Shown here piece by piece: positions 22,182 through 25,668 of a DNA stretch of 32,050 nucleotides. The first letter of the stretch is position 1, and every line of letters starts with the position of its first letter. The stretch covers positions 1 through 32,050 of the forward strand of contig DSBO01000168.1 in the NCBI GenBank assembly GCA_011046015.1, in the 5' to 3' direction. The translations under genes were made by a program, and so were the position numbers. Source of the DNA: Thioalkalivibrio sp. Its GTDB lineage: Bacteria > Pseudomonadota > Gammaproteobacteria > SpSt-1174. The notes under the pieces are model-generated. The model saw only the letters and a list, made by a program, of their open reading frames with translations. It was not told the origin of the DNA and searched no databases.

Positions 22182-23390
22182 TTAATTCGTCTGCGCCGCG
22201 ACTGACTGGCTGCACCACTGCGCGGGATTCACCGGCTTGCCCTGGTGGCGGATCTCGAAGTAGACGCCGGCCGTGTCATGGCCGCCGCTACGGCCCGCCG
22301 CGCCGATCACCTGGCCGGGCTCCACCCAGTCGCCGACCGAGGCGTACAGGCTCTGGTTGTACCCGTACAGGCTCATGTAGCCGTCGCCATGATCGACGAT
22401 GACCAGCAGGCCGAAGCCGCGCATCCAGTCGGCGAAGGCGACGCGCCCGTGGGAGATGGCCCGCACCTGGCGCCCCTCGGGCGCGGTGATCAGCACGCCC
22501 TGCCAGCGCAGGCTGGCGCCGGTGTGACCGCGCTCCTCGCCGAAGCGCGCCTTGATCTGGCCGTCGGCCGGCCAGGGCAGGCGCCCCTTGAGCGTGGTGA
22601 ACGGGCGCATGACGCCGTCGTTCGGAATGTCCTCCAGTACACGTGCCAGCTTCGCCAGCAGGGCCTTGAGCTGCTCCTCGTCCTCGCGCAGCGACGTCAG
22701 ACGCTGGTCGCTGGAAAGGATCTCGGCCCGCAGTTTGGCCAGCACCTCGCCGCGCTCCTGCTTGCCCGCCAGCAGCGCGTCCTGTCGCTGTTGCTGCGTC
22801 TTACGCGCCGCTTCCAGCGCCTGTGTCTGCTGGTCGATCTCGGCCTCGGTGCGCCGCAGGTCCGTGAGCGTGGATTCCACGGCATCGATGCGCTCGAGCC
22901 GGGCCGTCTGCAGGAATTCGTAGTAGGCGAGCACCCGGCCGACTGCCGCCGGGTCTTCCTGATTTAGCAGCAGCTTGATCTGCGCCTGGCGCCCGCCCGC
23001 ATAGGCCGCGCGAACCTGGCGCGCGAGCAGGTCGCGCTGTTCGGCCAGCGCATCGAGCTGGTCCCGGCGGGTGGCACGCAGGCCGTCCAGCCGCGCCTGG
23101 GTGCGGGCGAGCTGCGCGTCGATGTCCCGCAGCTCCCGGCTGCCGCGCCCAATCTCGCCTTCGATGCGGCGCAGCTCGCGTTCCAGCTTGCCCTGTTTGC
23201 CGCGCGCGGACTCCAGGCGTTCCTGCACGCGGGTGATCTCGGTCTGCAGCGCCTTGAGCCGTTGGGCCGCCTTCGCCTGCTCATCGGCCAGCGCCGGCGG
23301 GGCCAGCAGGACGGCGAGCAAAAACGGCAGAATGTGGCCAAGCAGTCGGGGAGTCACGCGAACGCGTCCATAATCATGGGCTAGGCGCAT
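22182..23390 (-). CDS. envC: Murein hydrolase activator EnvC (coiled coil plus degenerate LytM/M23 domain)
   Basis: N-terminal signal and coiled coil; C-terminal ISHGRVAFADWMRGFGLLVIVDHGDGYMSLYGYNQSLYASVGDWVEPGQVIGAAGRSGG. ORF extends to 23459 but MRLAHDYG at 23390 is a likelier start. Confidence 0.93.
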   Translation of the reverse strand: MRLAHDYGRVRVTPRLLGHILPFLLAVLLAPPALADEQAKAAQRLKALQTEITRVQERLESARGKQGKLERELRRIEGEIGRGSRELRDIDAQLARTQARLDGLRATRRDQLDALAEQRDLLARQVRAAYAGGRQAQIKLLLNQEDPAAVGRVLAYYEFLQTARLERIDAVESTLTDLRRTEAEIDQQTQALEAARKTQQQRQDALLAGKQERGEVLAKLRAEILSSDQRLTSLREDEEQLKALLAKLARVLEDIPNDGVMRPFTTLKGRLPWPADGQIKARFGEERGHTGASLRWQGVLITAPEGRQVRAISHGRVAFADWMRGFGLLVIVDHGDGYMSLYGYNQSLYASVGDWVEPGQVIGAAGRSGGHDTAGVYFEIRHQGKPVNPAQWCSQSVAAQTN

Positions 23391-23492
23391 TTTAGCCCGC
23401 CGGCACAGCAACTTGGAAAGTCGAACAGGACATCGGGCGCTTCCCTTCTGATGGCTCAACGTATTATTGTATAATGCATTGCTAATTTACAT

Positions 23493-23837
23493 GTGTTCCG
23501 TTTCATGACCGAGGCCGCGATCTTGACCACTTTAACGCCCCAACTGATGACTCGCGAAGAGGACATCGAGCGCGCGTCCCGTTCGCTCAAGGCCATGTCC
23601 CATCCCCTGCGTCTGAAGATCCTCTGCACCCTCGGCGAGCGCGAGGTCAGTGTACAGGAGATCGTGGAAAACGTCGGGACCTCGCAGAGCAACATCTCCC
23701 AGCACCTGGCCATCCTGCGCGACAAGGGCATCCTCGCTTCGCGCAAGGACGCCAACCGTGTCTACTACCGTGTTGGCGACGCACGCACGCTGCGCCTGAT
23801 CGGCATGATGCAGGAAGTGTTCTGCACCCAGGGCTGA
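23493..23837 (+). CDS. ArsR-family regulator, SqrR/BigR/YgaV-like (candidate persulfide sensor)
   Basis: SHPLRLKILCTLGEREVSVQEIVENVGTSQSNISQHLAILRDKGILASRKDANRVYYRV wHTH; only two Cys, at residues 45 and 111. Start may be 23505. Confidence 0.92.
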   Translation: MFRFMTEAAILTTLTPQLMTREEDIERASRSLKAMSHPLRLKILCTLGEREVSVQEIVENVGTSQSNISQHLAILRDKGILASRKDANRVYYRVGDARTLRLIGMMQEVFCTQG

Positions 23838-23943
23838 GCCGGCGCCTCCCTTAAACCGGCCAGACGCGGTATGATCCCCCGTCCGGCACGGCCATCGCGC
23901 CTGTCGGCCACGATCACAACCCAGGCCCGAAGCGGTATCGCAC

Positions 23944-24372
23944 ATGGACCAGTACCTCGAATTCATAAGTAATCATCCCCTGCTCTTCCTGGCCCTCGCG
24001 GCCGTGATCGCCATGCTGATCTGGACCGAGCTGCGCCGTTTCACGGTCGGCTACCAGATCATCACGCCCAATGACGCCGTTCGCCTCATGAACCAGGGGG
24101 ATGCCCTGATCCTCGACGTGCGCGAAGACAACGAGGTGCGCCAGGGCTTCATCGAGGGCGCCAAGCACATTCCGCTGGGCGTACTCGCCAAACGCATCGA
24201 CGAGATCTCGGGCAGCAAGGGCAAGCCGGTCATCGCCTATTGCCGCAGCGGGAACCGCTCGGCCTCGGCCTGCTCCATCCTCACCAAGGCCGGCTTCGAG
24301 AACGTTCACAACCTCAAGGGCGGTGTGATGGCCTGGAGCCAGGCGAATCTGCCGCTGAAAAAAAAGAAATGA
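23944..24372 (+). CDS. Membrane-anchored rhodanese-like domain protein (YibN-like)
   Basis: N-terminal TM, rhodanese active-site loop VIAYCRSGNRSASACSIL; upstream of grxC and secB as in E. coli yibN. Confidence 0.94.
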   Translation: MDQYLEFISNHPLLFLALAAVIAMLIWTELRRFTVGYQIITPNDAVRLMNQGDALILDVREDNEVRQGFIEGAKHIPLGVLAKRIDEISGSKGKPVIAYCRSGNRSASACSILTKAGFENVHNLKGGVMAWSQANLPLKKKK

Positions 24373-24644
24373 GTGCCCAGCCCAAGGTGGTGATGTACGC
24401 CACGGCCTTCTGCCCCTACTGCATGTGGGCGCGCCAGCTGTTCGAGAAGAAGGGCGTGAACTACGAGGAAGTGCGCGTGGACAAGGAGCCGGGGCGTCGC
24501 GGCGAGATGGAAGCGCGCAGCGGCCGCACCAGCGTGCCGCAGATCTTCATCGGTGACTTCCACGTGGGCGGTTTCGACGACATGGCCGCGCTGGATCGTG
24601 CCGGCGAGCTGGACGGCCTGCTGGGACGGGACGCCGCGGGATGA
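24369..24644 (+). CDS. grxC: Glutaredoxin 3
   Basis: MSAQPKVVMYATAFCPYCMWARQLFEKKGV CPYC motif; TSVPQIFIGDFHVGGFDDM; ATGA overlap with upstream gene. ORF track start 24240 is spurious. Confidence 0.95.
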   Translation: MSAQPKVVMYATAFCPYCMWARQLFEKKGVNYEEVRVDKEPGRRGEMEARSGRTSVPQIFIGDFHVGGFDDMAALDRAGELDGLLGRDAAG

Positions 24645-25075
24645 GCGAGCCGCTGCACGTCGTCTGCCCGCACTGCGGCCGGACCAATCGCGTGCCGGCT
24701 GACCGCCTCGCCGCTGCCCCGACCTGTGGCGCCTGCAAGCAACCCCTCTTTACCGGCCGCCCGGCCGAGGTGGACGCCGCCGGCCTCCAGACCCAGATCG
24801 GTCGCAGCGATCTCCCGGTGCTGGTGGACTTCTGGGCCCCCTGGTGCGCACCGTGCCGCATGATGGCCCCGGCCTTCGCCCAGGTGGCCGGGCAGTTCGA
24901 GCCGCACCTGCGTTGCCTCAAGCTCAATACCGAGGATCATCCCGACGGTGCCGCCCCCTTCGGCATCCGCGGCATACCCACGCTGATCCTGTTCAGGGGC
25001 GGGCGCGAGGCCGCGCGCGTGTCCGGGGCCATGGATGTGCGGCGCCTGGCCGACTGGGTGCGCCAGTCCCTGTAG
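24641..25075 (+). CDS. trxC: Thioredoxin 2 (TrxC) with N-terminal zinc-ribbon
   Basis: CPHC...CGAC zinc ribbon; VLVDFWAPWCAPCRMMAP active site. Confidence 0.93.
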   Translation: MSEPLHVVCPHCGRTNRVPADRLAAAPTCGACKQPLFTGRPAEVDAAGLQTQIGRSDLPVLVDFWAPWCAPCRMMAPAFAQVAGQFEPHLRCLKLNTEDHPDGAAPFGIRGIPTLILFRGGREAARVSGAMDVRRLADWVRQSL

Positions 25076-25179
25076 CGGCAGCGCATTTGATCCCCGCCGG
25101 ACCAGTCCCTATCATTCTCGCCATTCGCCGGTGTGCCGTGCGCGCCGTTCATCCCGTCACGTACCCATAGAGAATCACC

Positions 25180-25668
25180 ATGACCGATCAGGACCAGACC
25201 CCGGCTGCCGCCGGCAGCGAGCAGGCCCCCGCCTTCGGCCTGCAGAAGATCTACCTCAAGGACGTCTCCTTCGAGTCGCCCAACGCCCCGGCCGTCTACC
25301 TGGCCGAGTGGAAGCCCGAACACCAGGTACAGCTCACCACCGAGGTCCGCCCGCTGGAGGACGACAACCACGAGGTGGTACTCAACATCACCGTCACCGT
25401 AAAGAACGGCGAGACTACCGCCTACCTGGTCGAGATCAAGCAGGCCGGCATCTTCCTGGTGCGTAACTACAGCGACGAGCAGAAAGGCCCGCTGCTGGGC
25501 AGCCTGGCCCCGGCCACTCTCTTCCCCTATGCCCGCGAGGCCATCGCCAACCTGGTGCAGAAGGGCGGCTTCCCCGAACTGGTGCTACAGCCGATCAACT
25601 TCGACGCCCTGTTCGCCCAGCACGTCAAGCGCGCGCAGGAACAGGCGGCGGCGCAGGCTTCGCACTGA
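25180..25668 (+). CDS. secB: Protein-export chaperone SecB
   Basis: FGLQKIYLKDVSFESPNAPAVY...; LFPYAREAIANLVQKGGFPELVLQPINFDALF. Confidence 0.98.
   Translation: MTDQDQTPAAAGSEQAPAFGLQKIYLKDVSFESPNAPAVYLAEWKPEHQVQLTTEVRPLEDDNHEVVLNITVTVKNGETTAYLVEIKQAGIFLVRNYSDEQKGPLLGSLAPATLFPYAREAIANLVQKGGFPELVLQPINFDALFAQHVKRAQEQAAAQASH

Follow-up and report, generated by a model that had tools for sequence, protein, structure and literature searches.

We identified, in a stretch of DNA of 32,050 nucleotides (the window), a regulator of the ArsR/SmtB family which we read as a two-cysteine, sulfane-sulfur-sensing repressor. It probably controls its own arsR-rhodanese transcript through an AT-rich element at the arsR promoter. 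On the basis of sequence comparison, a structural model and analogy with characterised sensors, we estimate the probability of this reading at approximately 0.7. It draws on the sequence, its alignment, the fold, the conservation of the cysteines, the promoter element, the operon layout and the co-occurrence with sulfur genes; from there we infer persulfide chemistry for the window ArsR.

The regulator would act as a winged-helix repressor, presumably a homodimer. In its reduced form it would repress its own transcript by binding the AT-rich element that covers the arsR -10 box; this transcript probably reads through the rhodanese gene and, here, also through grxC and trxC. When the level of sulfane sulfur (persulfide or polysulfide) rises, a polysulfide bridge would join C45 and C111, and the bridged dimer would release the DNA, inducing the operon. 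The sulfane sulfur may then be transferred or reduced by the rhodanese and the thiol reductases.

Sensors of this kind are known. The literature searched contained no description of the clade, its fixed place, its element or its occurrence in almost all gammaproteobacterial sulfur oxidisers sampled, and no report of the same gene cluster was found there. Within the part of the literature covered, there was also no paper on ArsR sensing of cytoplasmic sulfane sulfur in gammaproteobacterial sulfur oxidisers.

The features of the locus are as follows.

22182..23459, minus strand: envC-like M23 peptidase, divergent (Pfam Peptidase_M23; NCBIfam EnvC match below cut-off; synteny); ORF opens at TTG 23459, with an ATG near 23390 as the probable start
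23461..23490, plus strand: AT-rich element, conserved, covering the putative -10 box TATAAT at 23470-23475; candidate core promoter and operator of arsR (motif search)
23493..23837, plus strand: arsR, ArsR/SmtB-family regulator with two cysteines (ORF, translation, Pfam HTH_5, NCBIfam HTH_metalloreg)
23625..23627, plus strand: Cys45 codon, helix α2 (aligned with the BigR, SqrR, YgaV and HlyU cysteine; 52/52 divergent homologues)
23823..23825, plus strand: Cys111 codon, C-terminal end of helix α5 (aligned with the same sensors; 51/52 divergent homologues, 26/26 at <66% identity)
23838..23943, no strand: arsR-rhodanese gap, 106 bp (scanned for terminator, element and SqrR-type site)
23944..24372, plus strand: membrane-anchored single-domain rhodanese, YibN orthologue, loop CRSGNRS, Cys100 codon 24241-24243 (Pfam Rhodanese; loop survey)
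24369..24644, plus strand: glutaredoxin 3, grxC (NCBIfam GRX_bact above cut-off); start overlaps the rhodanese stop (ATGA)
24641..25075, plus strand: thioredoxin 2, trxC (NCBIfam TrxC above cut-off); start overlaps the grxC stop (ATGA)
25180..25668, plus strand: secB (NCBIfam SecB above cut-off), preceded by a 104-bp gap

The cysteine pair, the predicted fold and the place in the family

Translation of 23493-23834 gave a protein of 114 amino acids with cysteines at 45 (RLKILCTLG) and 111 (MMQEVFCTQG) only, exactly as the earlier note had read them. There are three candidate start codons (GTG 23493, ATG 23505 or ATG 23547) and the choice between them is uncertain; if the gene starts at ATG 23505, the pair is numbered C41/C107. 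The protein scored above the cut-off for both Pfam HTH_5 and NCBIfam HTH_metalloreg. The proposed equivalence to the cysteine pairs of SqrR and BigR held: in a phmmer search against PDB chains C45 and C111 aligned with the pairs of the best matches, namely BigR (3pqj, E = 1.5e-19), YgaV (3cuo), HlyU (5znx) and SqrR (6o8l group).

Both cysteines were invariant in close orthologues (96 rows, the window counted twice), but so was most of the protein. Among 52 divergent homologues of approximately 34-77% identity, C45 was present in 52, C111 in 51 and the pair in 51. In the 26 homologues below 66% identity both cysteines were 100% conserved, while the median position was conserved in 58%; therefore their conservation goes beyond chance. 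Low-identity control ArsRs from the same genomes (33-43% identity) had both cysteines in 6 cases and neither at the aligned places in 8, and 1 was unreadable. One orthologue, L152, is a natural C111V variant that retains C45; its genome (G192) contains a second family match.

The metal sites of ArsR/SmtB sensors follow the patterns α3 CXC or α5 DXHX10HXXE. Neither was present in the sequence of the window ArsR, in which α3 reads EVSVQEI and α5 has no His. Since the required α3 CXC and α5 His/Asp ligands are missing, we rejected the identity of a metal-sensing ArsR/SmtB protein. Metal-ligand patterns of ArsR proteins were also drawn from PMC10509353.

We built an AlphaFold2 model of the protein from 64 window and locus sequences (mean pLDDT 86.5). 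The order of its elements is α1-α2-α3-α4-β1-β2-α5 and, in the numbering of the model, C41 lies inside α2 (34-43) and C107 directly after α5 (93-106). This structure prediction, which had been proposed as a check, puts one cysteine within α2 and the other where α5 ends. Foldseek comparison with PDB ranked HlyU, SqrR (its tetrasulfide form included) and BigR on top, and SmtB and CzrA lower. An α2/α5 cysteine pair is the hallmark of cluster 4 of the ArsR similarity network, which holds all known ArsR proteins that sense reactive sulfur species (RSS) (PMC10509353). The predicted fold, the placement of the cysteines and the missing metal-site residues support a fit to the two-cysteine RSS sensor type.

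In a tree of 60 proteins, limited by long branches and 98 columns, the window ArsR belonged to a clade of 49 rows divided by a 100/100 split from BigR, SqrR, YgaV and HlyU. The other side of this split held the characterised sensors, metal sensors and four low-identity gammaproteobacterial proteins. With the BigR equivalog NCBIfam NF040642 the protein scored 82.9 bits, below the cut-off of 155 bits. No SqrR/YgaV-type ATTC-N8-GAAT site was found in the promoter, where the best match has mismatches at 3 of 8 positions. The earlier note had called the protein a persulfide sensor of the SqrR/BigR/YgaV type: this is partly supported, since the fold, the cysteine placement and the missing metal residues speak for it, whereas the score, the promoter and the place in the tree do not. 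As judged from the sequence, the clade is a separate, uncharacterised one, RSS-sensor-like by anatomy, yet neither BigR nor SqrR.

We compared the window with the named systems. In Escherichia coli YgaV-YgaP a two-cysteine ArsR, with its cysteines aligned to ours, shares an operon with a rhodanese, YgaP, which is membrane-bound. A footprint of the YgaV repressor lies over the core promoter of ygaVP, the operon that encodes it (PMC9774250). This system differs from ours in its clade; the window rhodanese is of YibN type and lies in the secB locus, and the window promoter has no ATTC-N8-GAAT. SqrR of Rhodobacter capsulatus is alike in the fold and the cysteine pair (37-38% identity in the fold alignment), but belongs to a separate clade and uses a different DNA element. 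BigR (Xylella, Acinetobacter) gave the best PDB sequence match with the cysteine pair aligned, but is set apart by its equivalog cut-off and its clade. HlyU (Vibrio) is among the top fold matches and has the cysteine pair; it differs in activating hlyA transcription and, again, in clade. Its chemistry is persulfide-only, with no reaction with H2O2 or GSSG (PMC10509353). Further, sHdrR and SoxR of Hyphomicrobium denitrificans are two-cysteine ArsR proteins tied to sulfur oxidation (PMC12423496, PMC10451225), although they are alphaproteobacterial, regulate sox/shdr clusters and are likened to the window ArsR by description. They affect 165 (sHdrR) and 170 (SoxR) genes (PMC12423496), and SoxR is able to form a disulfide in oxidising conditions (PMC10451225).

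A sister group of two-cysteine ArsR paralogues (L184, L185, L190-L195; 57-63% identity) was also observed. Its genes lie mostly directly downstream of a gene for a receiver-PAS protein, usually with a sensor histidine kinase before that (domains checked in L192 only, where a receiver-like domain at the C-terminus of the kinase scored under the Pfam cut-off). Kinase / receiver-PAS / ArsR is a repeated arrangement in this group.

The arsR promoter element and the neighbouring genes

A motif search in 90 orthologous arsR upstream regions returned an AT-rich element of 24-30 bp, ATTATTGTATAATGTTTTANTAATAAA, which includes the presumed -10 box. The copy at 23461-23490 scored 33.4 bits, and there was no second match above 12 bits in the window. 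Many orthologues had a strong copy, the most distant of them at 62% identity; the element was absent in the paralogue group and missing upstream of some arsR orthologues among the 90 regions. A search of 149 genomes gave 17 sites with no more than 2 mismatches, of which 14 were located at arsR when coordinates were compared. The element showed weak symmetry (p of about 0.01 at the best of approximately 40 centres, before correction for their number). Palindromic motif models were rejected: they fitted more poorly than the unconstrained model, and the symmetry was not significant when these centres were allowed for.

As strong matches occur almost only at arsR and cover the -10 box, the element may be an operator over the arsR core promoter, which suggests autorepression. 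The footprint of YgaV helps this reading; the weak symmetry means that the element is perhaps just a conserved promoter. In the arsR-rhodanese gap (23838-23943) we found neither a terminator-like site nor a SqrR-type site, and the element did not recur there.

The earlier note had placed arsR directly upstream of the rhodanese gene, followed by the grxC and trxC genes. We found the same, with a 106-bp gap after arsR and ATGA overlaps at grxC and trxC. In 146 loci the rhodanese gene followed arsR directly and in the same orientation (gap 0-587 bp, about two thirds of them at 106 bp or less). A promoter scan gave a weak promoter-like match at 25087-25115, in the 104-bp gap before secB. The corresponding locus of E. 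coli MG1655 has no arsR and consists of yibN-grxC-secB-gpsA opposite gpmM-envC-yibQ. The rhodanese-grxC-secB adjacency is ancestral and, since E. coli has it without arsR, it means little alone; the caution expressed earlier, that it is partly ancestral, was right.

Of the 122 arsR loci that have both a rhodanese gene and secB, 56 contain grx and 29 contain trxC; 57 have neither of the two. Because these genes vary, the proposal of a switch over a thiol-redox operon was too strong, and the sole conserved element is at the arsR promoter. Grx3 and Trx2 are variable passengers of the arsR locus. In the window, trxC (24641-25075) is inserted between grxC and secB, a presence that it has in 29/122 comparable loci.

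The median identity across loci was 86% for ArsR, 62% for Ctp, 49% for SecB, 45% for the rhodanese and 40% for EnvC, and ArsR identity exceeded that of the rhodanese in 143/143 loci; arsR was the search query for this set, which favours close ArsR copies. Four orthologues of 71-77% identity (L151, L153, L154, L156) had no rhodanese found nearby. In L151 the next ORF may encode a TolC-type protein.

The linked rhodanese and sulfur-oxidation genes

Along its full length the window rhodanese is 35% identical to E. coli YibN. In E. coli YibN the cysteine is displaced (PMC12282094). The canonical loop C-x-x-G-x-R was present in 24/29 divergent arsR-linked loci and in 3/30 arsR-less loci (Fisher p = 1e-8). 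After correction for relatedness, on a tree of poor resolution, the difference went the expected way in 6 pairs and the opposite way in 0, and 7 pairs showed none; supported branches held just 2 pairs. The association of the loop with arsR is confounded by phylogeny, and some arsR-linked rhodaneses lack the catalytic cysteine. In YibN proteins at the secB locus of Gammaproteobacteria without the ArsR clade (L208-L237 and E. coli, L197) the loop was mostly degenerate, and 6/30 arsR-less YibN proteins had no cysteine at the canonical place. The arsR-linked rhodaneses suggest which YibN proteins still perform sulfur transfer.

We analysed 276 gammaproteobacterial genomes, counting the clade as present at E of about 1e-27 or below, with the paralogue group included. 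It was carried by 142 of them. SoxB was found in 74% and DsrA in 62% of the clade-carrying genomes, against 7% and 1%, respectively, of those without the clade. Seen from the other side, the clade was present in 88/89 dsrA-positive and 105/115 soxB-positive genomes. The pair test for soxB/dsrA gave 5-6 to 0-1 on the best tree, with only 2 pairs on supported branches, and phylogeny confounds this co-occurrence as well. No full SoxB or DsrA was found in the MAG that contains the window, which is 76% complete; a congener has SoxB, without dsrA. The sulfur link of the ArsR rests on the rhodanese loop and the dsrA/soxB co-occurrence, both independent of adjacency.

Alternative readings and a possible wider role

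Several observations weigh against a sulfane-sulfur-sensing autorepressor: the place outside the clade of characterised sensors, the confounding of both sulfur associations, the weak symmetry of the element and its gaps among orthologues, the linked rhodaneses without a catalytic cysteine, the loss of C111 in L152 and the lack of a full SoxB or DsrA in the incomplete MAG of the window. The alternative that keeps most of it is an RSS sensor with the same sensing step and a different regulon, with main targets elsewhere (sox, dsr and related genes) and minor autoregulation. The contrast between ArsR (86%) and its neighbour proteins (38-62%) hints at constraint beyond one operator, and the phylogenetic profile with dsrA/soxB and the many genes affected by sHdrR and SoxR point the same way. 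However, the element is nearly confined to arsR and no sulfur-oxidation operon was seen with it in pattern searches for non-degenerate sites; we consider this alternative possible but on balance unlikely.

A broader proposal, that the clade is a class-wide sulfane-sulfur sensor and a master switch linking the persulfide level to rhodanese-fed sulfur oxidation (rDsr/Sox) in gammaproteobacterial sulfur oxidisers, is tentative and in our opinion rather doubtful. If it were true, near-universality in dsrA-positive genomes and extreme conservation would be due to a regulon, large or under tight constraint, that is reached via sites unrecognised here.

A local autoregulator that responds to another signal (a metal, another ligand or none), with structural cysteines and an ancestral rhodanese neighbour, seems improbable. 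The annotation names only a metalloregulator-type ArsR, the rhodanese-grxC-secB order is ancestral, and close orthologues conserve nearly the whole protein and not the cysteines alone. Against this, the sequence lacks the known metal-site residues, the cysteines stayed fixed while most positions changed, and there are the rhodanese-loop and dsrA/soxB associations. Quite improbable is a dithiol redox sensor that responds to oxidative or disulfide stress with a plain C45-C111 disulfide and controls grxC and trxC as a thiol-repair operon, sulfane sulfur having no particular part in it: this would suit the overlapping grxC and trxC and the disulfide of Hyphomicrobium SoxR, but both genes are absent from 57/122 comparable loci, HlyU with the same pair is inert to H2O2 and GSSG (PMC10509353), and the co-occurrence partner is dsrA/soxB.

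Whether gammaproteobacterial sulfur oxidisers sense sulfane sulfur through this ArsR clade can be tested directly in cultured relatives, e.g. Thioalkalivibrio or Ectothiorhodospira, since the clade is present in 88/89 dsrA-positive genomes, its position is fixed, its conservation greatly exceeds that of the neighbouring genes, and a candidate operator has been defined. Very small dsrA-positive genomes of 1.0-1.1 Mb (G228, G129 and G040; loci L161, L165 and L166) keep arsR, and in L161 and L165 the rhodanese has no catalytic cysteine.
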